From assembly GCF_000964005.1 (NCBI RefSeq), contig NZ_JXYP01000006.1:62001-126000 (forward strand): 64,000 nt of DNA, given 5' to 3'. Below, piece by piece: positions 24,231 through 62,265 of the stretch (position 1 is the first letter of the stretch; each line of letters opens with the position of its first letter). Source of the stretch: Williamsia herbipolensis (GTDB lineage Bacteria; Actinomycetota; Actinomycetes; Mycobacteriales; Mycobacteriaceae). Below the pieces are notes generated by a model. It was not told the DNA's origin. It was given only the letters and a program-made list of their open reading frames with translations, and made no database searches. The position numbers and the translations under genes are program-made.

Positions 24231-25268
24231 TCAGTCGTTGGATGCGGTGGCCGGGAGGCCGAAACGCGCGAACTCGGCCACCAGGTCGCCGGCGAAGAAC
24301 GCCACCACGTGGCGCACCGAGCCGTCGGTGTCGAGATCGAGGACCTGCAGCTGGAACGGGCGGTGCACGCCGTCGTCGCCGATCATGTACAGCCCGAACG
24401 CCGGCTGCCCGCCGTTGGCGGTGGTCGGCAGCAGGATCTGATCGCCCGCCTTCTCGGCCGGGCAGTTGCCGCGGATGAGCTTCCCGATCTGCTCGCCACC
24501 GAGATACCAGCCGGTGAACGGCGGCATCTCCCAGATGGAGGAGTCGGTGAACAGCGACACGATCGCGTCGACGTCGTAGTCCTGGAACGCGGCCACATAG
24601 CGCTCGAGGGTCGCGCGTTTCGTGGACTCGTCCAGCTCGGTCACCGAGTCGCGTTCGGGGGCAACCTCTTTGAGCTGGGCCCGGGCGCGCTGCTGGAGGC
24701 TGTTCACGGTCGCGACCGTGAGCCCTAGGGTGTCGGCGACCTCGGCGGCGCGCCAGGCGAGCACGTCACGCAGGATGAGGACGGCCCGCTGTCGTTCGGG
24801 CAGGTGCTGTAGCGACGCGATGAACGCGAGCCGGATCGACTCGCGTGAGCCCACTACCTGAGCCGGATCGGCCGATTCCGGAGGTGCCGCGGCATCATCG
24901 GCGTAGGGCTCGAGCCACGGGACCTCGTGGTCCTGCAGCAGAGGTGCCTCGGGGTCGTAGGCGTCGCCGCCCAGACCGCTGGGGAGCGGACGGCGCTTCT
25001 TGCTCTCCAGTGCGGTGAGGCAGGTGTTGGTGGCGATCTTGTGCAGCCAGGTGCGCACCGACGCCCTCTGGTCGTAGCCCGCATACCCGCGCCAGGCCCG
25101 GATGTAGGTCTCCTGCAACAGGTCCTCGGCATCGTGGTGGCTGCCCATCATGCGGTAGCAGTGCGCCATGATCTCGCGACGGTATGGCTCGATGATCTCG
25201 AGGAACTCGCTGTCGGTGACCGTCTGAGCGGATGTCTTCGCTGCCGGTGCGGTGGGCTGGGCTGTCAT
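24231..25268 (-). CDS. ECF sigma factor with C-terminal SnoaL-like domain
   Basis: A 345-aa RNA polymerase sigma factor. Region 2 (residues ~24-90) includes MGSHHDAEDLLQETYIRAWR, and region 4 (near 165-215) includes LPERQRAVLILRDVLAWRAA with an HTH. The extra ~130-residue C-terminal domain (ALERYVAAFQDYDVDAIVSL onward in similar form) is of the SnoaL/NTF2 type that modulates activity in the SigG/SigJ/ECF41-like groups. No anti-sigma gene is adjacent. Leaderless start with a TACCCT box 7 nt upstream of the ATG. Confidence 0.88.
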   Translation of the reverse strand: MTAQPTAPAAKTSAQTVTDSEFLEIIEPYRREIMAHCYRMMGSHHDAEDLLQETYIRAWRGYAGYDQRASVRTWLHKIATNTCLTALESKKRRPLPSGLGGDAYDPEAPLLQDHEVPWLEPYADDAAAPPESADPAQVVGSRESIRLAFIASLQHLPERQRAVLILRDVLAWRAAEVADTLGLTVATVNSLQQRARAQLKEVAPERDSVTELDESTKRATLERYVAAFQDYDVDAIVSLFTDSSIWEMPPFTGWYLGGEQIGKLIRGNCPAEKAGDQILLPTTANGGQPAFGLYMIGDDGVHRPFQLQVLDLDTDGSVRHVVAFFAGDLVAEFARFGLPATASND

Positions 25269-25275
25269 GCGTGCC

Positions 25276-25281
25276 AGGGTA
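25276..25281 (-). promoter_or_regulatory. -10 box TACCCT for sigma factor gene
   Basis: TACCCT on the minus strand ends 7 nt before the ATG at 25268, leaderless. Confidence 0.45.
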
Positions 25282-25307
25282 CGAAGAATCGGACAGTTGC
25301 GCAGCGG

Positions 25308-25778
25308 TTACCGGGACCAGAAGCCGGCGTGTACCTCGCGCGCCTTCGGCAGGTCGACGGGGCCGCGGACCTCGATCTCGCGCACCCCGCGGGCGAAGAC
25401 CTCGCGGCAGGGGAGATCGAGGACGGGGTTGGCCGGGTCGGCGCCGGCCAGCTGGCGTAGCTCCGACTCGGCCAGCGCGTAGACCACGGCCCCGATCCCG
25501 GCCCAGTAGATGGCGCCCGCGCACATCGCGCACGGTTCGGTGCTGGCGTACATGGTCATGGTCGACAGGTCCGCGCGGCTGATGCGGCCGCCCACCGTGC
25601 GCACGAGGTTCGTCTCGGCGTGGCCGGTCGGATCGCGGTCGGTGACCACGGTGTTCAGGCCGCTGCCGACCACCGTCCCGGACCGGCCCACCAGTACCGC
25701 TCCGAACGGGTGGTCACCACTTGCCCGTGCCTGTTCGGCGAGGTCGATGGCCTGGAGGAGGAAACCCGCGTCGTCCAC
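25308..25778 (-). CDS. Nucleoside/nucleobase deaminase (CDA fold)
   Basis: A zinc-dependent deaminase of about 156 aa. The metal sites are HAETNLVR (His and proton-shuttle Glu) and the PCAMCAGAIYW cysteine pair, as in TadA/guanine deaminase-like enzymes. The start is uncertain: the domain begins at the GTG at 25778, but the frame stays open to an ATG at 25898. That extension would be encoded by the 98-bp palindromic element at 25830-25927, which is not part of the family, so I prefer 25778. Substrate not determined. Confidence 0.82.
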   Translation of the reverse strand: MDDAGFLLQAIDLAEQARASGDHPFGAVLVGRSGTVVGSGLNTVVTDRDPTGHAETNLVRTVGGRISRADLSTMTMYASTEPCAMCAGAIYWAGIGAVVYALAESELRQLAGADPANPVLDLPCREVFARGVREIEVRGPVDLPKAREVHAGFWSR

Positions 25779-25829
25779 GTCGTCGACGGTAACAACATGC
25801 GGTTGGATTGCGTCGGTGGTGCTGACGGT

Positions 25830-25927
25830 GCTGACTGTGTGGAAACGGTCGTCGAGTGTGCTCACTGCACACCGCGAGCCGACGACGAGGCAACGCACAC
25901 TCGGCGTCCGGCTTCCGCACCGTCAGC
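25830..25927 (-). repeat. 98-bp palindromic element, copy A
   Basis: Ends GCTGAC and GTCAGC; arms carry GTGTGGAAA / CTTCCGCAC and TCGAGTGTGC / GCACACTCGG. In the orientation given (minus) the arms are 33 and 32 nt with a 33-nt centre, as in copies B, C and D. It lies between the deaminase and the 13E12/HNH gene. A partial duplicate of the end (GCTGACGGT) abuts it at 25821-25829. Confidence 0.9.
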
Positions 25928-26015
25928 GGCAGGAGACCGCAACCACCCACCCGAAATACACTCACGTTCAACACTATTCACCAAAATCAATCTCCCACCC
26001 CTCGAACACGCGTGC

Positions 26016-26021
26016 TAGAAT
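26016..26021 (+). promoter_or_regulatory. -10 box TAGAAT for 13E12/HNH gene
   Basis: TAGAAT stands 34 nt before the GTG at 26056, giving a short leader that contains GGGGAGGAG at 26040-26048 as ribosome-binding site. Confidence 0.45.
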
Positions 26022-26055
26022 AGACGTACAGTCACACCTGGGGAGGAGCGTCACC

Positions 26056-27536
26056 GTGAACGATCTCGTAGCGGATTACGCTGCCCTGGAACAGATCTTG
26101 AACAAGATCGCTGCATCCGACTCCACAGCGTGCGACGACGAGACCGTCGCCGAGCTGGCGATCCGCCACGAACACACCATCCGCCGAATGGAATCCATCG
26201 GCAACCAGCGCATCCTCGAGGTCTCCGACCGCGACGCCCACCGCACCGTCGGATGCGTGACCGTCACCGAATTCCTCCAGACGAAACTCCGCATCACCCA
26301 CCCCAAGAAGCGGCTCGACGCAGTCCGGTCCCTCGAACCCATGCACGCGATGACCGGTGAGAAGCTGCCGCCGGTGTGCCCGAACACCGCGCGCGAGTTG
26401 GCCGCCGGAACGATCGGGCCTGATCACGTCCACGCGGTGTTGGACGTGCTGAAGAAGATCCCGTCGGCCGGCGACGTGGAGCAGCGGGCGCGGGCAGAGG
26501 AAGTCCTGGCCGAATTCGCAACCACGTTGACGCCGAGAGAGATCACCGCCGCCGGCGTGCGGATCCTCGCCCACCTCGATCCCGACGGGCAATTGACCGA
26601 CGACCGTGATCGCGCACGGAATCGGAAGCTGAATCTCGGGTGTCAGGACAGCCAGTTGATGTCGAAGCTGACCGCGACGTTGGATCCGATCACGCGAGCC
26701 CTGTTCGACGTGGTTCTCACTAAGTGGGCCGCGCCCGGGATGAACAACCCCGACGACGACCTGTCCCCAAAAGGCGACCACGACGACGCCGATCCCGAGT
26801 TGTTGCGGGAGGCCGCGGACCGGGATTGCCGCAGCCAGAGTCAGCGGAACCACGATGCGTTCAAAACTTTGCTGGATGCTGCGGTCAACGGTGGCCTGCT
26901 TGGTGGCTCGCATCGGGGTTTGCCGCCGCAGATCATCGTGTCCATCACCGACGCACAGCTCCGGGAGCACGCCGGTGTAGCACGCACCGCCACGGGAATT
27001 GACCTGCCGATCAGCGACGTCGTGAAACTCGCGGCCGAAGCACAGCCCCACCTGGCCGTCTTCAGCGACGTCACCAACGAACCGTTGTTCTTCGGCCGGT
27101 CCCAACGATTGGCGTCGCAGGTGCAACGGTTCATGGCCTTCACCCAGTACGGCGGCTGCAGCAAGGACGACTGCACGACACCGTTCGCGACACCGAAATG
27201 CATCACGCCGAACGCGATTGGGCCGACGGCGGACACACCGACTCGCCACACATGGCTCCCGCCTGTGGTCGACACAATCGAGCCGTCGGACCCGAACCGC
27301 ATCAGTGGAGCACGGAGAAGATCACCGACGGCCCCGACAAGGGCCGCTACGGGTGGCGTCGTAACACCGACCCACCCGACCAGGTTCGCGCCAACCACCT
27401 GCACCGGATCGACGAACTGCTGCAACGACATTCCCGAGAGGTCGATCCACCGTGCCCCGAGCGGAGTGAACCGCCGCCGGCTCGGAGCTTCGACCTCACC
27501 TGGCCCCGGGCTCCGCTGTACCTCGCTGCCTCATAG
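26056..27536 (+). pseudogene. 13E12/DUF222 HNH endonuclease-like protein, frameshifted
   Basis: A member of the REP13E12 family: an N-terminal DUF222 domain (residues ~1-330) and a C-terminal HNH nuclease domain. The reading frame begins at the GTG at 26056. Near 27201 the frame must change: the zinc-type cysteines of the first frame (GGCSKDDC...PKC) should be followed directly by HHAERDWADGG, which is found in the frame starting at 27198. One missing base (a C after 27201) explains it, and restoring it gives a 493-aa protein. The gene lies between element copies A and B in head-to-head orientation. The biological role of the family is unknown; DNA cleavage is expected from HNH but unproven. 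Confidence 0.8.
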
Positions 27537-27555
27537 CTGGTTGCGTTCTACCACC

Positions 27556-27653
27556 GCTGACTGTGCGGAAAGTCGGCGTCGAGTGTGCGCTGTTCGGCTG
27601 TGAACTCACGCGTCGCGGTGAGCACACTCGACTGGACTTTCCACACACTCAGC
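27556..27653 (+). repeat. 98-bp palindromic element, copy B
   Basis: Begins GCTGACTGTGCGGAAA and ends TTTCCACACACTCAGC, with inner motifs TCGAGTGTGC (27580-27588 region) and GCACACTCGA (from 27622). Same 33/33/32-nt plan as the other copies, plus orientation. Follows the HNH gene by 19 nt and precedes the convergent TetR gene. Confidence 0.9.
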
Positions 27654-27668
27654 ACCACCACCACCCGA

Positions 27669-27690
27669 CTCGACTATTCACACACTCAGC
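27669..27690 (+). repeat. Degenerate extra right end beside copy B
   Basis: ACTCGACTATTCACACACTCAG repeats, with a 6-nt internal deletion, the last ~28 nt of copy B. It overlaps the end of the TetR gene at 27686. Confidence 0.5.
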
Positions 27691-28375
27691 CGTCGCGCCT
27701 GTGCGCCTGGATGCCGGTGAGGATCAGGTCGATGCCGGCGAGGAATTGGTCGCGGTCGTCGTGATCTCGGAGGGCGGCAGCCATCTGGCGGACGAACGGG
27801 AACTCGACCGGATCGAGGTCGGCCCATCGATCGGCCATGGCGGCGAGCTGCGTCGCCCGGTCGCCCAGATGCGTTCGTGTGCGGGCGGTCTGGGCGTTCT
27901 CCGCGTTCTGGCCCGCGACACCGAGCACGTAGTTCACCAACGCCGACGTCGCATCGAACGCCTCTCGGGACGACAGCGCGCCGAGCGTGACCACCCGGCT
28001 GCCGATGCTCTCGAAGAACCGCATCAGCGAGTCCTGCCCGGCCTCGCGAGGTAGCTGCCCGCCGACCCACGGGTGCGCGTCGATCGCATCGAACATCCCC
28101 ACCGCGACGGTGCGAATGGCCCGCGCCGGATCGTCCTCGTCGACCACCGACGACACGACCGGTTCGACGACCACCGACGTCGCTGCACCCAACAGTTCGT
28201 CCTTGTTCGCCACGTGGTGATAGATCGCGCCCGCACCGGTGTTCAACCGCGTCGCCAGCACGCGGAACGTCAGACCGGCGGCGCCGTCGACGTCGAGGAT
28301 CGCGACGGCCTCCTCCACGATCCGATCCGTCGACAACGCATCGGTGCGGCGCTCAGCTCGTCGCGTCGTGGGCAT
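27686..28375 (-). CDS. TetR repressor of the TetX-like monooxygenase
   Basis: A 229-aa regulator with an HTH (LTFRVLATRLNTGAGAIYHH, residues ~35-54) and a TetR_C-type all-helical domain as in tetracycline repressors. It is divergent from the TetX-like gene at 28455, with two strong palindromes (28393-28435) in the 79-bp gap. The C-terminal codons run into a degenerate copy of the 98-bp element end, so the natural C-terminus may have been altered by that insertion; inference. Confidence 0.87.
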   Translation of the reverse strand: MPTTRRAERRTDALSTDRIVEEAVAILDVDGAAGLTFRVLATRLNTGAGAIYHHVANKDELLGAATSVVVEPVVSSVVDEDDPARAIRTVAVGMFDAIDAHPWVGGQLPREAGQDSLMRFFESIGSRVVTLGALSSREAFDATSALVNYVLGVAGQNAENAQTARTRTHLGDRATQLAAMADRWADLDPVEFPFVRQMAAALRDHDDRDQFLAGIDLILTGIQAHRRDG

Positions 28376-28392
28376 GCCTCATCTTGACATTG

Positions 28393-28409
28393 TTGGAACG
28401 ACGTTCCAA
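28393..28409. promoter_or_regulatory. Operator 1, TTGGAAC-N3-GTTCCAA
   Basis: TTGGAACGACGTTCCAA is a perfect 7-bp inverted repeat in the gap between divergent tetR-like and tetX-like genes. Confidence 0.75.
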
Positions 28410-28420
28410 GCTATTGGCAA

Positions 28421-28435
28421 TGGAATGGCGTTCCA
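28421..28435. promoter_or_regulatory. Operator 2, TGGAA-N5-TTCCA
   Basis: TGGAATGGCGTTCCA repeats the motif of operator 1 with one weaker arm, 28 nt away centre to centre. Two sites suit one repressor controlling both divergent genes. Confidence 0.65.
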
Positions 28436-28454
28436 ACGAGGCGAGGAGTAACCC

Positions 28455-29597
28455 ATGAACACGAACATCACGATCATCGGCGCAGGTCTGGGCGGTCTGG
28501 TGCTGGCGCGGGTCCTGCACGTCCACGGCATCGCCGCGACGATCTACGAGGCCGAACCCTCGGCCATGGCCCGTACCCAGGGCGGCCAGCTCGACATCCA
28601 CGAGAACGACGGCCAGGTCGCCCTCGCGGCCGCCGGCCTCACCGCCGAGTTCCGCACGATCATCCACTCCGGTGGCGAGGCCATGCGGATCCTCGACCGA
28701 CACGCGACGCTGCTCTACGAGGACGTCGACGACGGCACCGGCGGCCGCCCCGAGGTCCTGCGCGGCGACCTGCGGCGCATCCTCATCGAGTCGCTGCCCG
28801 CCGACACCATCCGCTGGGGCGCGAAGGTGACCCACATCCTCTCGCTCGGCGACGGGCGACACCGAGTGGTCTTCGACGACGGATCGAGCGTCGAGACCGG
28901 CCTCCTCGTCGGGGCCGACGGCGCGTGGTCGAAGGTGCGTCCGCTGGTGTCGGATGCGACTCCTCAGTACTCGGGGATCACGTTGGTCGAGACCTACCTG
29001 CACGACGTCGACGACGAGCACCCGGAGGCGGCCGGCGTCGTCGGTGACGGCGCGGTGTTCGCGCTCGCGCCCGGACGATCGATCTCGGTACACCGCGAGG
29101 CGAATGCCGTCCTGCACACGTACGCCGCGCTGGTCGAACCCCTGGACTGGTTCACCGGCCTCGACGTCACCGATGCCGCCGGGATCGCGACCGTCATGAC
29201 GGGTTTCGCCGACTGGGCACCGGCGTTGACGGCGCTGATCACCGACCACGACGCGACACCGGCATTGCGTCCGATCCACGGTCTGCCCATCGGGCACGAG
29301 TGGTCGCATCGGTCGGGGGTGACCCTCGTCGGCGATGCCGCGCACCTCATGCCACCGGCCGGTGACGGTGCGAACCTCGCGATGATCGACGGTGCCGAAC
29401 TCGGGCTGGCGATCGCCGCGCATCCCGACGACCTCGACGCGGCGATCGGGAGCTACGAGCAGACGATGTTTCCCCGCAGTCGCGCCGCGGCCCACGACTC
29501 GGCCGCCATGCAGGAGCTGCTGTACGGCGATCGCGCCCCGCAGTCCCTCGTGGAGTTCTTCACCGGCACGCACGCGAGAGTCGCTGCCGAGGGCTGA
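28455..29597 (+). CDS. TetX-like FAD-dependent monooxygenase
   Basis: A 380-aa class A flavin monooxygenase close in plan to tetracycline-inactivating Tet(X) (388 aa). It has the FAD motif IIGAGLGGLVLARVL (residues 6-20), GGQLDIHENDGQVAL near 45, RGDLRRILIESLP near 100, the DG motif VGADGAWSKVRPLV, and GDAAHLMPPAGDGANLAM near 297, all in Tet(X) order. RBS GAGGAG lies 6 nt before the ATG. Divergent from a TetR gene with paired operators. Whether it acts on tetracycline or on another aromatic is not shown; many environmental homologues have other substrates. Confidence 0.85.
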   Translation: MNTNITIIGAGLGGLVLARVLHVHGIAATIYEAEPSAMARTQGGQLDIHENDGQVALAAAGLTAEFRTIIHSGGEAMRILDRHATLLYEDVDDGTGGRPEVLRGDLRRILIESLPADTIRWGAKVTHILSLGDGRHRVVFDDGSSVETGLLVGADGAWSKVRPLVSDATPQYSGITLVETYLHDVDDEHPEAAGVVGDGAVFALAPGRSISVHREANAVLHTYAALVEPLDWFTGLDVTDAAGIATVMTGFADWAPALTALITDHDATPALRPIHGLPIGHEWSHRSGVTLVGDAAHLMPPAGDGANLAMIDGAELGLAIAAHPDDLDAAIGSYEQTMFPRSRAAAHDSAAMQELLYGDRAPQSLVEFFTGTHARVAAEG

Positions 29598-29609: not shown

Positions 29610-30824
29610 TCAGACGGTCGCGCTCAGCGGCGGTGGAGTTCCGCGCAGCACGAATCGGCCGATGTGCTGGTACTTCCAGCGGACCGGGTCGTGCAACGTG
29701 TGCGTGCGGGCGTTGCGCCAGAAGTGCGACAGGTTGAGTTCATCCACCGCGCTGCGGGTCCCGCTCACCTCGAACAGTGCCGACGACACCTCGGTCGCCG
29801 CGCGATCCGACACGATCTTGGCCGTCGCGACGGCCGTGGAGGCCTCGGCGGCGAGCAGACGGGGATCGTCGGGTGAGGTGATGGTGGCGTCGACCGCGCG
29901 GGCCGCGGCGTCGAGTGTCGCCTCAGCCGTCGAGACGAGCACTGCGAGCTCGCCGAAACGCTGCACCAACAGCGGGTCGTCGATGGCGTTGTCCACACCG
30001 GCCTCGAACCACGGTCGCGACTCGGTCCGCACGAAATCGACTGCGGCATACAGTGCGCCGGCGGCGATACCGGTGTCGATGGCCGCGTGGATCAGCTGCG
30101 AGAACGCCCCGTAGGCGGCGGGCACCTCGACTGCAGGGGTCCGCGGGACGAGGTCGTCGTCGGCGACCGCGACCGCGGTGAACCGCGCCGTACCGCTGCC
30201 GGTGGTGCGCTGCCCGATGCCGTTCCAGTCGTCGATCAACTCGACGCCTTCGGCGTCGGGGGAGACGAACACGACGTACTCGCCCGGCTTGTGGTCGCCG
30301 TCGGCCTCGTCGAGACGGGCCAGCACGGCCAGCCGTGTCGCGAACAACGTCCCCGTGCAGTAGAACTTCTCGCCGTCGAGCCGGAAGAGGCTGCCGTCGC
30401 GCGTGATCCGGGTGTCGACACCGTCGGCGAACGCGGTCGCCCGTTCGGCCTGCGCGTTCGCGGCCCGGCCACCGGCGAGGACATGGGCGAAGTGTCGCGC
30501 CTTCTGCTCGTCGGTCCCGGCGAGGCGCAGGAGGTTGAGATTCGTGAAGTGGCTGTGCGGGATCTGTGCGACGTTGGGGTCGGCCGCGGCCAGGATGCGC
30601 ACCACCTCGGCCACGGTCGACGGCGGCAGATCCGGCCCGCCGAACGCGGCGGGGACGGTGATCGCGAGCAACCCCGACGCCGAGAGGGCCTCGATCTCGG
30701 CGTGGGGTAGCGACCGCTGACGGTCGCGCTCCGCCGCGCCCGGACCGAAACGCGCAGCCAGACAGCGAGCGGAATCGACTGCCTGGGTGTGGGTCTCGAT
30801 ACGGGCGGCGACGGATGCGGTCAT
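29610..30824 (-). CDS. sfnB: SfnB-family acyl-CoA dehydrogenase-like flavoprotein
   Basis: A 404-aa acyl-CoA dehydrogenase-fold flavoprotein of the SfnB/DszC-like group used in organosulfur assimilation. Typical segments are VPAAFGGPDLPPSTV, DPNVAQIPHSHF (near residue 85), the FMN contact GEKFYCTGTLFA and the C-terminal RNARTHTLHDPVRWKYQHIG, which marks this branch. It lacks the acyl-CoA dehydrogenase catalytic Glu context. It is the last gene of ssuD-sfnG-sfnB, starting 2 nt after the sfnG stop. The precise reaction of SfnB is not settled. Confidence 0.85.
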   Translation of the reverse strand: MTASVAARIETHTQAVDSARCLAARFGPGAAERDRQRSLPHAEIEALSASGLLAITVPAAFGGPDLPPSTVAEVVRILAAADPNVAQIPHSHFTNLNLLRLAGTDEQKARHFAHVLAGGRAANAQAERATAFADGVDTRITRDGSLFRLDGEKFYCTGTLFATRLAVLARLDEADGDHKPGEYVVFVSPDAEGVELIDDWNGIGQRTTGSGTARFTAVAVADDDLVPRTPAVEVPAAYGAFSQLIHAAIDTGIAAGALYAAVDFVRTESRPWFEAGVDNAIDDPLLVQRFGELAVLVSTAEATLDAAARAVDATITSPDDPRLLAAEASTAVATAKIVSDRAATEVSSALFEVSGTRSAVDELNLSHFWRNARTHTLHDPVRWKYQHIGRFVLRGTPPPLSATV

Positions 30825-30826
30825 GA

Positions 30827-31933
30827 CTAGACCGAGACCTTCTCGGCGGCCTCGAGCTCACGCACGAGCGGCATGACCTTCTCACCGAAGTACTCGATCT
30901 CTTCCTGGAAGTGCAGGAAGCCACCGAGGATGAGGTCGACGCCGAGCTTCTTGTAGGCGACGATCCGCTCGGCGATCTGCTCGGGCGTACCGATCAGCTG
31001 GGTCTTGAACCCGTCGTTGTACTGCACGAGGTCCTCGAACTTCGAGTCCGCCCACATGCCCTTGCCGTCGGAGGTGGACTTGCCGGCCTGCTGCACCGAG
31101 TCGCGGAAGCCCTCCACCGCGGGCTTGTTGGCCTTCTCGATGATCTCGCGCAGGGTGTCGCGGGCTTCCTTCTCGGTGTCGCGGGCGATGATGAAGCCGT
31201 TAAGGCCGAACTTGGTCTCGCGGTTGTGGGCCTGGGCGACCGAGCGCAGGTCCTCGATCTGCTCGGTGACGCCGTCGAAGTCCTTGCCGTTGGAGAAGTA
31301 CCAGTCGGCGAACTGACCACCGTTGCGGCGCGCGGCCGAGGAGTTGCCACCCTGGAACAGCTCGGGGTTCGGGCGCTCGGGGGTGTTGAGCGGCTTGGGC
31401 TTCAGGCTGAAGTCGCGGATCCGGTAGAAGTCGCCGGCGAACTCGACGTTGTCCTCGGTCCAGATCTTCCGGATGACCTCGAGGAACTCGGCGCTGCGAC
31501 GGTAACGCTCGTCGTGCTCGAGCCACGGCTCACCGAGGGCCTTGAACTCGCCCGAGAACCAGCCCGAGACGACGTTGATCGCGAAGCGGCCGTTCGACAG
31601 GTGATCGGCGGTGGCGCCGAACTTCGCCAGCACGGCGGGATGCCACAGACCGGGGTGGATCGCGGTGATCACCTTGAGCTTCTCGGTCGCCATCAGCAGT
31701 GCCAGCGAGAACGACGTCGACTCGTGCTGGAACTCGGCGCCGTACGACGCCATGTACCGCACCTGCGACAGCGCGTACTCGAACCCGACCTTCTCGGCGG
31801 TCTGCGCGAGCTTCTTGTTGTACTCGAACTCCCAGTTGGTGCGCTGCTCGATGTCGCTGGTGACCAGGCCACCGCTCACGTTCGGGACCCAGTAGGCGAA
31901 CTTCACTTCGTCGGCGATCTTCTCGGTGCTCAT
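30827..31933 (-). CDS. sfnG: Dimethylsulfone monooxygenase, flavin-dependent
   Basis: A 368-aa bacterial-luciferase-type (LLM) enzyme. SfnG uses FMNH2 and O2 to cleave dimethylsulfone to methanesulfinate, supplying sulfur. The N-terminus (KFAYWVPNVSGGLVTSDIEQ) and the internal VVSGWFSGEFKALGEPWLEH and FQGGNSSAARRNGGQ are diagnostic of SfnG. A reduced-flavin supplier is not encoded nearby. Located between ssuD (60 nt upstream) and sfnB (2 nt downstream) on the same strand, which gives a sulfone to sulfonate to sulfite route. Confidence 0.93.
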   Translation of the reverse strand: MSTEKIADEVKFAYWVPNVSGGLVTSDIEQRTNWEFEYNKKLAQTAEKVGFEYALSQVRYMASYGAEFQHESTSFSLALLMATEKLKVITAIHPGLWHPAVLAKFGATADHLSNGRFAINVVSGWFSGEFKALGEPWLEHDERYRRSAEFLEVIRKIWTEDNVEFAGDFYRIRDFSLKPKPLNTPERPNPELFQGGNSSAARRNGGQFADWYFSNGKDFDGVTEQIEDLRSVAQAHNRETKFGLNGFIIARDTEKEARDTLREIIEKANKPAVEGFRDSVQQAGKSTSDGKGMWADSKFEDLVQYNDGFKTQLIGTPEQIAERIVAYKKLGVDLILGGFLHFQEEIEYFGEKVMPLVRELEAAEKVSV

Positions 31934-54803: not shown

Positions 54804-54901
54804 GCTGACTGGGCGGAAAGGGCCATCGAGTGTGCTGACCTCGATGGGTGAGAAGTGTTCTGGACTGCGCACACTCGATGCGGCGTTTCCGCCCCGTCAG
54901 C
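54804..54901 (-). repeat. 98-bp palindromic element, copy C
   Basis: Left end GCTGACTGGGCGGAAA, right end TTTCCGCCCCGTCAGC; inner motifs TCGAGTGTGC and GCACACTCGA. It reads as the minus orientation by arm lengths (33/32) and by similarity of its centre to copy B. It starts 10 nt after the fadAB terminator. Confidence 0.9.
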
Positions 54902-54934
54902 GGCTTGTGAGCCTTTGGGCTGGGTTGTACAGCC

Positions 54935-55032
54935 GCTGACGGTGCGGAAGCCCGTCGTCGAGTGTGCGTTGTTCGTTTGTCGGGTCACGGTGGGTTGTCA
55001 GCACACTCGACGGCGGTTTCCACACAGTCAGC
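54935..55032 (+). repeat. 98-bp palindromic element, copy D
   Basis: Left end GCTGACGGTGCGGAAG, right end TTTCCACACAGTCAGC; inner motifs TCGAGTGTGC and GCACACTCGA. Plus orientation. Only 33 nt separate it from copy C, in the same head-to-head arrangement as copies A and B. Confidence 0.9.
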
Positions 55033-60276: not shown

Positions 60277-62265
60277 TCACCAGATCCGGACGCGCTCCGC
60301 CGGATCGAGGTAGAGACGATCGCCGGGGCGCACGTCGAATGCCTCGTAGAAGGCGTCGACGTTGCGGACGACGCCGTTACAGCGGAACTCCGGCGGTGAG
60401 TGCGGGTCGACCGCGAGACGCGTGATGGCCGCGGCCTCCCGCAGTTTGCTCCGCCACACCTGCGCCCATCCGAAGAACACGCGCTGCAGACCGGTGAGAC
60501 CGTCGATCCGCGGTGGCTCGGTGCCCTCGGTGGCCAGCCGATAGGCGACCAGGGCGATCGACAGGCCGCCCAGGTCGCCGATGTTCTCGCCGATGGTGAA
60601 CGCGCCGTTGACCTTGTGGGACTCCTCGAGCCCGCGAGGGGTGAACTTGTCGTACTGCTTGATCAGGACCTTCGTACGCTTGCCGAACTCGGAGCGGTCG
60701 GCGTCGGTCCACCAGTCGACGAGGTTGCCGTCGCCGTCGTACTTGGCGCCCTGATCGTCGAAGCCGTGGCCGATCTCGTGTCCGATGACCGCGCCGATGC
60801 CGCCGTAGTTCGCGGCGTCGTCGGCGTCGGGGTCGAAGAACGGCGGCTGCAGGATCGCCGCGGGGAACACGATCTCGTTCATGCCGGGGTTGTAGTAGGC
60901 GTTGACCGTCTGCGGCGTCATGAACCACTCGTCGCGGTCGACCAGTCCGCCGATCTTCGCCAGCTCCCGGTCCTGCTCGAAGGCGGACGCCCGCGCGACG
61001 TTGCCGACGAGGTCGTCGGCCACCATCTCGAGACCGGAGTAGTCACGCCACTGCGCGGGGTAGCCGATCTTCGGGGTGAACCGGTCGAGCTTGGCGAGCG
61101 CCTTCTCCCGCGTCTGGGGACTCATCCAGTCGAGATCACTGATGTTGCCGCGGTAGGCCTCCACCAGGTTCGCGATCAGCTCGTCCATGCGTGCCTTCGC
61201 CGCCGGGGGGAAGTGGCGCTCGACGTAGATCTTGCCGACCGCGAAACCGATGGCCGCCTCGACGAGACCGACACCGCGCTTCCAGCGGTCGCGGTTGACC
61301 GGCGTGCCCGACAGGGTGCGGCCGTAGAAGTCGAAGTTCTCCTCGACGAACGCCGCGGGCAGATAGGGCGCCGCGGAGTGCACGACCTCCCACTGCAGCC
61401 ACGTGATCCAGTCGGTGAGCGGGCGGTCGGCGACGAGGCCGCCGAGTCCGTCGACGAACGACGGCTGTCGCACCACGACCTCGTCCAGCGCGGCTTGTTC
61501 GACACCCAGGCCACGCGTCCACGCGGCGATGTCGAAGGCGCCTGCCACCGAGGCGATCTCGGCGAAGGAGCGCAGGTTGTAGGTGAGGTCGGCGTCCCGG
61601 CGCCGGACCACGTCCCAGTGGAAGCCCGCGATCGCGGTCTCGAGATCGAGAACCGTCGCGGCCTTCGTCTCGGCGTCGTCGATGCCGGCCAGCGCCAGCA
61701 TCGCGCCGACGTGCGTGCGGTAGGACTCCCGGGTCTCGCGGTGCTTGTCCTCGGTGTAGTACGACTCGTCGGGCAGGCCGATACCCGACTGCGACACGTG
61801 CACGAGGTAGCGGTCGGACTGCTTGGAATCGGTGTCGACGTAGAAGCCCAGAGCGCCACCGGATCCCGCGCGCTGCAGCTCACCCATGACCTCGGCGAGC
61901 TCCTCGGTGGAACCGATCGCGGCGACACGGTCGAGCTGTGCGCGGATCGGGTCGAGACCGAGCGACTCGATGCGGTCGGTGTCCATGAAACTGCGGTACA
62001 GCGCACCGATCAGCTGTGTGTCCGACCCGGTCGGGGCGTCGGAGGTCTCGGCGCACTCGACGACGATGTCGCGGACGTTCTCCTCGGCCCGATCGCGCAG
62101 CGTGTAGAACGACCCGTCCATGGGGCGGTCCTCGGGGATCTCGTGCTCGGTGAGCCAGACGCCGTTGACGTGCTCGAACAGGTCGTCCTGCGCGCGAATC
62201 GACTCGTCCACCCAGTCGAGGTCGATACCGGAGCGTGCGGATGCGGAAGCGGTTGTGGAGGTCAC
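60277..62265 (-). CDS. M13 family zinc metallopeptidase (Zmp1/neprilysin-like)
   Basis: A 662-aa metallopeptidase, the same size as M. tuberculosis Zmp1 (663 aa). The zinc motif GHEIGHGFDDQG is near residue 490, the third ligand Glu in FTIGENIGDLGG near 553, and NAYYNPGMNEIVFPAAI precedes. The GTG start at 62265 gives that length; the frame is open further upstream to 62682, but that part is antisense to the PBP-like gene. No signal peptide, as in Zmp1, which is exported without one. Divergent from the lipoprotein at 62393. Confidence 0.92.
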   Translation of the reverse strand: MTSTTASASARSGIDLDWVDESIRAQDDLFEHVNGVWLTEHEIPEDRPMDGSFYTLRDRAEENVRDIVVECAETSDAPTGSDTQLIGALYRSFMDTDRIESLGLDPIRAQLDRVAAIGSTEELAEVMGELQRAGSGGALGFYVDTDSKQSDRYLVHVSQSGIGLPDESYYTEDKHRETRESYRTHVGAMLALAGIDDAETKAATVLDLETAIAGFHWDVVRRRDADLTYNLRSFAEIASVAGAFDIAAWTRGLGVEQAALDEVVVRQPSFVDGLGGLVADRPLTDWITWLQWEVVHSAAPYLPAAFVEENFDFYGRTLSGTPVNRDRWKRGVGLVEAAIGFAVGKIYVERHFPPAAKARMDELIANLVEAYRGNISDLDWMSPQTREKALAKLDRFTPKIGYPAQWRDYSGLEMVADDLVGNVARASAFEQDRELAKIGGLVDRDEWFMTPQTVNAYYNPGMNEIVFPAAILQPPFFDPDADDAANYGGIGAVIGHEIGHGFDDQGAKYDGDGNLVDWWTDADRSEFGKRTKVLIKQYDKFTPRGLEESHKVNGAFTIGENIGDLGGLSIALVAYRLATEGTEPPRIDGLTGLQRVFFGWAQVWRSKLREAAAITRLAVDPHSPPEFRCNGVVRNVDAFYEAFDVRPGDRLYLDPAERVRIW

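Follow-up and report, generated by a model that had tools for sequence, protein, structure and literature searches.

The gene that lies between two inverted hairpins in the 64 000-nucleotide stretch of the Williamsia herbipolensis genome analysed here (the window; contig positions 62001–126000) is part of a larger, genus-level system of REP-like repeats that contains a DUF222-HNH unit. A palindrome of approximately 101 nt is the monomer of a Williamsia repeat family of the REP/BIME-like kind, arranged mostly in alternating inverted orientation, for which a linker near 27 nt is preferred. Within the multicopy DUF222-HNH (REP13E12-type) genes, one subgroup forms dispersed units that carry this hairpin at the left end and, in four of the ten W. 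herbipolensis units, at the right end as well. When related species are compared, several intergenic sites prove to hold a unit in one and bare hairpins in another. This layout of hairpins around a repeated gene suggests, short of proof, that the HNH protein, and not the usual transposase, works on the hairpins. We know of no role assigned to the DUF222-HNH (13E12) genes, which are multicopy in the actinomycete genomes examined.

The window locus and its DUF222-HNH gene

The left hairpin (copy A; 25830–25930, + strand; 113.2 bits with covariance model R1) has the orientation of the gene and forms the left end of a repeated DUF222 unit, and the right hairpin (copy B; 27553–27653, − strand; 102.9 bits with model R1) is inverted and forms its right end. 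The first-pass annotation of the window had described inverted copies of about 98 nt lying some 1,628 bp apart around a single DUF222 gene, and this description was confirmed. Taken as hairpins of approximately 98 nt (an element of approximately 101 nt), the copies are separated by about 1,628 bp; the window repeat search returned inverted arms of 128 nt, 72% complementary, with 1592 nt between them; and copy A used as a query recovered copy B in the W. herbipolensis genome with an E value of 2.4e-10. The strand reading GCTGA(C/G)TGTGTGG, treated as single-stranded DNA, gave folding z scores of −4.4 (A) and −7.0 (B), with none of 200 shuffles as good, and the opposite strands gave −2.4 (A; four of 200 shuffles as good) and −4.7 (B). 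A partial half-hairpin repeat (27662–27690, − strand; 86% to 27625–27653, family D1) adjoins copy B, and half-copies resembling it also adjoin other hairpins. An Rfam scan of window positions 25000–28500 returned no matches up to an E value of 1. Elsewhere in the window, the hairpin model matches a gene-less, inverted REPIN-like pair (54804–54904, + strand, and 54932–55032, − strand) with a 27-bp linker. An inverted repeat (GTTGGAACGACGTTCCA / TGGAATGGCGTTCCAAC; 28392–28437) is present between the divergent genes for a TetR protein (27686–28375) and an FAD monooxygenase (28455–29597) and is likely to be a TetR operator.

The enclosed gene matches DUF222 (PF02720) with an E value of 7.9e-53 and 180.2 bits against a cut-off of 24.4. 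The HNH part of this 13E12-type gene is frameshifted in the window copy: the DUF222 part (26056–27189, + strand) runs in frame 1 from an in-frame GTG start, and the HNH/C-terminal part (27192–27521, + strand) lies in frame 3. Eight of the ten W. herbipolensis units of the subgroup match in a single frame, the window copy and unit C13 being split between frames. The Cys/His pattern of the C-terminal HNH motif is conserved in the W. herbipolensis paralogues and in relatives; of three DUF222 proteins scanned, one, W. muralis L112, matched the Pfam HNH domain (22.8 against 21.4 bits), and W. herbipolensis C23 and W. maris L052 gave no such match. Domain scans of the window gene and of three DUF222 proteins detected no transposase domain, and two DUF222 proteins searched against NCBIfam remained without a match. 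Foldseek, queried with the AlphaFold2 model of unit C23 (mean pLDDT 79.6, pTM 0.56), returned 215 matches in the PDB up to an E value of 10, the best at 0.44 and none at 0.001.

The gene had also been credited with its own promoter. What was found upstream is a degenerate SOS/LexA-type box (TCGAACACGCGTGCTA; 26002–26017, + strand) with two mismatches to TCGAACNNNNGTTCGA, 54 bp 5′ of the start codon; a sigma-70 promoter scan of the window gene was empty. SOS-type boxes with at most two mismatches were found no more than 250 bp upstream of 79 of 95 DUF222 genes, against 0.039 expected per 260 bp, the box of the W. herbipolensis subgroup being a weaker form. The genome of this species contains 28 DUF222 matches, ten of them in the close subgroup, and the gene is a multicopy dispersed repeat.

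The hairpin as a Williamsia repeat family

Model R1 was built on 19 hairpin copies from W. herbipolensis, and matches above 60 bits were taken as strong hairpins; lower rows, including reverse-strand readings of the same hairpins, were left uncounted. Among the matches listed, 94 strong hairpins were found in six of the eight genomes of the genus: 31 in W. maris (G002), 24 in G003, 19 in W. herbipolensis (G000), these being the copies of the model, 15 in G005, three in W. serinedens (G004) and two in the uncultured Williamsia 235-3Z (G007), with no match above 60 bits in G001 and G006. Eight of 121 genomes of the family had a match at an E value of 1e-8; since seven of these are among the eight genomes of the genus and one lies elsewhere (8.9e-10), the hairpin is nearly confined to Williamsia.

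Pair order, wobble pairs and end tags were counted after the hairpins of L163 and L179 had been set aside, which left 92 of the 94. Orientation alternates in 39 of the 40 neighbouring pairs that are at most 400 bp apart. The linkers of pairs ordered '+ then −' measure 25–29 bp in 21 of 25 cases, the '− then +' gaps (n = 14) spread from 8 to 76 bp, and alternating arrays such as +−+−+− occur. Inverted pairs with short linkers and alternating tandem arrays are the organization given for REP, BIME and REPIN elements in excerpts of two papers (PMC8266576, PMC8049555), and the Williamsia hairpins share the further REP-type trait of being dispersed folding palindromes, located between genes at the loci read.

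Across 90 distinct hairpins, standard pairs occupy 98.2% of the paired cells, compared with at most 95.1% in 300 column shuffles, a control that takes the copies as unrelated and leaves their relatedness uncorrected. Seven pairs are changed on both sides, against a shuffle mean of 5.85, so that strict covariation contributes little. Among the wobble pairs there are 133 G·U and ten A·C; one column pair gives 80 of the 133, leaving 53 against ten without it. Because A·C is G·U on the opposite strand, one strand is the folding one, and the family thus has a strand polarity. Over the 92 hairpins, the tags GTAG and CGTC precede the hairpin in one and two cases and follow at its 3′ end in 13 and 15, respectively; with no consistent GTAG or CGTC tag, the family is REP-like and stands outside the tagged superfamilies.

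Other repeats were seen in the neighbourhood of the hairpins. Tandem copies of the 5′ half only accompany many of them (L037 at about 2546–2676, L042, L044 and L168) and may have arisen through incomplete copying. Another type of repeat, with CGCTCCAC...GTGGAGCG motifs, adjoins the REP-like hairpins in G005 (L188, around 1437–1760) and in G003 (L173). At W. serinedens L057 (741–854), an array of GTCGAGTGGGCG motifs forms a long palindrome that matches the hairpin model weakly (35 bits).

DUF222 units, hairpins and matching sites

Fourteen of the 19 W. herbipolensis hairpins lie within 1.5 kb of a DUF222 match, ten upstream in the orientation of the gene and four downstream and inverted. The upstream hairpin is present in nine of the ten closest units of this genome, 233–427 bp from the DUF222 match, with two hairpins in unit C1 and none in unit C25. 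The downstream inverted hairpin, of a somewhat different subtype, is present in four of the ten; only these have both ends, and inverted repeats at the two termini, as looked for in classical transposons, are limited to them. Similarity between units begins within approximately 60 bp of the hairpin and stops either about 75–100 bp before the stop codon or just beyond the right hairpin. Upstream hairpins also accompany three DUF222 genes in W. maris and two in G003; the distance is 235–236 bp for four of these genes and 847 bp for the fifth. The proposal that the palindromes bound the gene is supported in part, by recurrence among the units, but the hairpin is not exclusive to this gene: among the matches listed, 75 of the 94 strong hairpins lie more than 1.5 kb from any DUF222 gene and 19 are near one.

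Seen from the side of the gene, a strong hairpin stands beside 14 of the 132 DUF222 matches in the eight genomes, among the hairpins listed. Nearness was computed for 48 of the 132 (the stronger ones, from G000 and G002–G005, with none from G001, G006 or G007); the remaining matches were compared by eye, and none was seen to have a listed hairpin within 1.5 kb. The first-pass annotation had named as grounds against a functional link that most DUF222 genes should lack the palindrome and that the two should meet as rarely as by chance. Most of the genes do lack it, and most strong hairpins stand apart from the gene, but the 19 hairpins near DUF222 genes among the matches listed compare with a rough chance expectation of about one (132 genes × 3 kb over approximately 37 Mb × 94 hairpins), an excess of approximately 20-fold which, as these hairpins share ancestry and go back to few events, does not represent independent counts.

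The genes beside hairpins were compared by blastp of frames of at least 90 amino acids within 1.5 kb of 45 hairpin sites (12 in G000, 14 in G002, ten in G003 and nine of ten in G005, with none in G004 and G007). DUF222 was the only gene family strongly shared beside hairpins in G000, G002 and G003; the other hits around hairpins were weak (at most 75 bits) and were read as lying inside repeats. A search for the RAYT-type Y1 transposase (PF01797) at an E value of 0.001 was negative in all eight genomes of the genus and positive in five of 14 controls. The likeness to REP sequences and their RAYT partners that had been drawn from the window locus, with an HNH nuclease as the partner, is supported in part: the hairpins are ordered as REP/REPIN repeats, no RAYT-type Y1 enzyme was found in the eight genomes, and DUF222 is the sole strongly recurring family among the frames compared.

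All 12 hairpin-bearing genes placed in a tree, which was built without the window copy and C13, fall within one clade of 15 rows with a support of 99 (quick method), and the association may accordingly go back to a single capture inherited with the unit. Closely related genes lacking the hairpin are W. herbipolensis C25, L051 and L059. A general rule that DUF222 genes carry this hairpin was rejected, a strong hairpin being found near three of 80 named loci, all in W. maris (best 80 of 237 relatives). Weak hairpin matches (28–34 bits) occur just downstream of the gene at two Gordonia soli loci, with a few others further away, and outside Williamsia DUF222 genes are common without this hairpin. 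In the same tree, a DUF222 protein from a Kitasatospora arboriphila record (L122) lies inside the Williamsia muralis group, reflecting either a recent transfer or a contaminating contig.

Other palindromes were sought beside DUF222 genes with a sequence-blind hairpin scan. At 16 of the 80 loci it placed a hairpin close to the gene, against about six expected from overall density (49 hairpins); since several of these look like ordinary terminators, the figure is not strong evidence. W. muralis has an unrelated palindrome of its own that borders some DUF222 genes on one side or on both (L112, 5790–5862 and 7527–7599; L125, 5812–5869), near DUF222 in three of four copies in strain BULT and one of three in NBRC 105860, among the matches listed. 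A Gordonia tangerina palindrome is located downstream of two DUF222 units (L085, 7586–7657 and 9519–9590; L084, 7590–7653) and at gene-less sites, two of its seven copies being within 1 kb of DUF222 among the matches listed. These palindromes suggest that the pairing has recurred, the evidence being no more than suggestive given the small copy numbers and the 92% likeness of the two G. tangerina units.

Several loci were aligned across species. At the locus of unit C13, W. maris (L164, L233) has flanks matching at 85–86%, three hairpins and no DUF222 gene; G003 (L235) has flanks 54 bp apart and, judged by eye, no more than a half-hairpin between them; and the stretches of other genomes contain neither hairpin nor DUF222 gene. 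W. herbipolensis itself carries approximately 2.1 kb of extra sequence at this locus, which partly matches the same locus in G001, G004 and G005. At the L054/L178 locus, W. maris and G003 have hairpin and gene, G005 (L188; flanks 90–92%) has the hairpin without the gene, neither element is present in the stretches from G000, G001, G004 and G007, and no match was obtained in G006; the region is also rearranged. The comparison stretches at these two loci reach 1.5 kb past the match, and absence of both elements refers to that extent. At the window locus, the flanks 24245–25217 and 29610–31144 match W. maris L166 and G003 L170, which contain hairpin arrays and no DUF222 gene; as the W. herbipolensis segment enclosed by these flanks, which includes genes for a deaminase, a TetR protein and an FAD monooxygenase, is unmatched there except through hairpins, this is a variable site and not a clean one. 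Unit C1 matches a hairpin-only site of G007 on one flank, and the gene-less pair at 54804–55032 has an orthologous site with hairpins in G002, G004, G005 and G007. Unit C26 (L038) and W. maris L052 occupy an orthologous intergenic site with collinear flanks, around a unit which, together with its hairpin, is in the opposite orientation in the two genomes. Among the stretches compared, none offered an orthologous hairpin stretch for the W. herbipolensis loci C47, C23, C49 and C30.

The first-pass annotation had called for a survey of flanking palindromes and empty sites. Hairpin-only orthologous loci were found, and among the 80 named loci a strong hairpin near the gene was limited to the three of W. 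maris mentioned above. Inspection by eye of the aligned loci revealed neither a target-site duplication nor a clean excision, the junctions not being clean. The W. muralis pair L112/L128 was rejected as an empty site, since the two differ at the downstream hairpin yet both hold unlike sequence there. In W. serinedens, the uncultured Williamsia and W. deligens, several DUF222 loci are orthologous by their flanks and their proteins cluster by genome, so these units have long been stationary and have been homogenized within each genome by concerted evolution, which agrees with the reported gene conversion of REP13E12 in Mycobacterium tuberculosis (PMC13061034).

Possible roles of the HNH protein and their implications

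The reading that we place first, with confidence somewhat short of even, is that of a REPtron-like unit whose HNH protein would act on the hairpin and so start the copying of units or hairpin pairs to other hairpin sites. Induced from the SOS-type promoter, the HNH protein would recognize the folded strand of the hairpin, either single-stranded or extruded, and would nick or break the DNA there, and repair would then copy the whole unit, or the hairpin pair alone, into another hairpin site. The gene-less pairs would be non-autonomous products, and the window copy, its HNH part broken, would be a decayed unit that relies on intact copies elsewhere. Such copying would explain the dispersal of the units, the coincident loci and the likeness of paralogues within a genome. 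The alternating repeat order, the strand polarity, the unit boundaries, the sites shared by units and bare hairpins and the concerted evolution are observed, and recognition, cutting and copying are proposed on top of them; the negative Y1 search, the SOS-type boxes, the standing of DUF222 as sole strongly shared family and the other palindromes in W. muralis and G. tangerina also favour this reading. Weighing against it are the many hairpins far from any DUF222 gene, including all 15 of G005, the single clade of hairpin-bearing genes, the hairpin-less unit C25, the six of ten units that lack one or both ends, the want of a target-site duplication or clean excision at the aligned loci, the DUF222 genes that do without this hairpin outside the genus, the lack of a structural match at an E value of 0.001 and the broken state of the window copy. 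In a fuller version, an SOS-inducible DUF222-HNH nuclease, with no tyrosine transposase, would recognize one hairpin strand and would disperse its own gene as well as gene-less hairpin pairs, different actinomycete lineages having different hairpins matched to their own DUF222 clades; this appears clearly less likely than not.

The strongest rival, passive hitch-hiking, is a serious possibility to which we would give rather less than even weight. Here the hairpins are, or formerly were, moved by another enzyme and the HNH protein is inert towards them; an ancestral unit came by chance to lie beside a 5′ hairpin, a sub-lineage gained the 3′ one, and recombination or gene conversion spread and homogenized the result. 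The single clade of hairpin-bearing units agrees with this, as does the near-equal distance of the upstream hairpin in three genomes, which one inherited event predicts. So do the 75 of 94 strong hairpins that stand alone and the 15 of G005, none of which is beside a DUF222 gene (both among the matches listed), with the qualification that the G005 assembly consists of 240 contigs and repeats may therefore be missing. Gene conversion among REP13E12 paralogues in Mycobacterium tuberculosis, described in an excerpt of PMC13061034, provides a process of the kind needed. Set against it are the several loci common to units and bare hairpins, the gain of a second, inverted hairpin on the other side of the gene, the want of any other family strongly recurrent beside hairpins among the frames compared, and the unlike palindromes that W. 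muralis and G. tangerina have beside some of their DUF222 genes.

It is unlikely that the hairpins are simply preferred landing sites of a mobile or homing DUF222-HNH gene that leaves them unmoved. The hairpin-only loci in G002, G003, G005 and G007 that correspond to loci with hairpin and gene elsewhere would fit such a relationship, and a precedent exists in the copies of ISPpu9 inside REPs (PMC8450116, in part). However, the gene lies beside the hairpin at a near-constant distance and never inside one in the units seen, and the joint inversion of hairpin and gene between L038 and L052 fits the hairpin as a component of the unit. A regulatory hairpin, serving upstream in attenuation, as an operator or in RNA-end protection and downstream at the transcript end, is very improbable: its constant upstream position and orientation and the REP roles of this type reported in excerpts of PMC8049555 and PMC8266576 speak for it, but the hairpin is 5′ of the SOS-type box, most hairpins are away from the gene and in both orientations, and the close relatives C25, L051 and L059 do without it.

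The Williamsia system has parallels in several known elements. With the REPtron (REP/BIME or REPIN repeats with TnpA-REP/RAYT), as portrayed in excerpts of PMC8266576, PMC8049555 and PMC3733652, it shares short folding intergenic repeats with a strand polarity, inverted pairs with short linkers, alternating arrays, the occurrence of singlets and of remnants, and the placing of repeats on either side of a nuclease-type gene. In contrast to the REPtron, the flanked Williamsia gene encodes DUF222 and HNH and is multicopy, RAYT genes not copying themselves according to part of PMC8049555. The Williamsia hairpin is also longer (approximately 100 nt) and lacks a consistent GTAG or CGTC tag, and no Y1/HUH transposase was found in the eight Williamsia genomes. 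With neither a Y1 transposase nor a consistent tag found, the layout is REPtron-like and not a REPtron by definition.

The REP13E12/13E12 family of M. tuberculosis was reportedly described by Gordon et al. in 1999. An SOS-type promoter, which in mycobacteria is linked to LexA, is a feature of both this family and the Williamsia units. A multicopy dispersed DUF222-HNH unit whose copies are kept alike by gene conversion is likewise common to both, but hairpin ends and gene-less arrays are not described for M. tuberculosis in the excerpts of PMC13061034 and PMC10589994. ISPpu9-type insertion sequences resemble the Williamsia units in placing a mobile-type gene at REP-like repeats (PMC8450116, in part). 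Unlike them, the DUF222 gene gave no sign of a transposase domain in the scans, and the hairpin belongs to the ends of the unit. HNH homing endonuclease genes likewise combine an HNH domain with presence or absence at matching sites and homogenized paralogues. The Williamsia gene, however, lies beside a hairpin and not within a gene, and is not known to be tied to an intron, an intein, a cleaved allele or a cleavage site. In the literature searched, mostly open access, no title or abstract linked DUF222-HNH genes to REP-like hairpins.

REP elements of the CGTC type that lack a dedicated transposase are presented as an open problem in part of PMC3733652, and an excerpt of PMC6006769 gives only one subclass of Y1 enzymes as present in Actinobacteridae. 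REP-like repeats and DUF222-HNH genes, joined in one genus, now each have a concrete partner to be tested. Should the hairpin prove to be a substrate on which the HNH protein acts, this protein would represent a new enzyme class driving REP-type repeats, and the gene conversion of REP13E12 in M. tuberculosis (PMC13061034, in part) would gain a candidate trigger.
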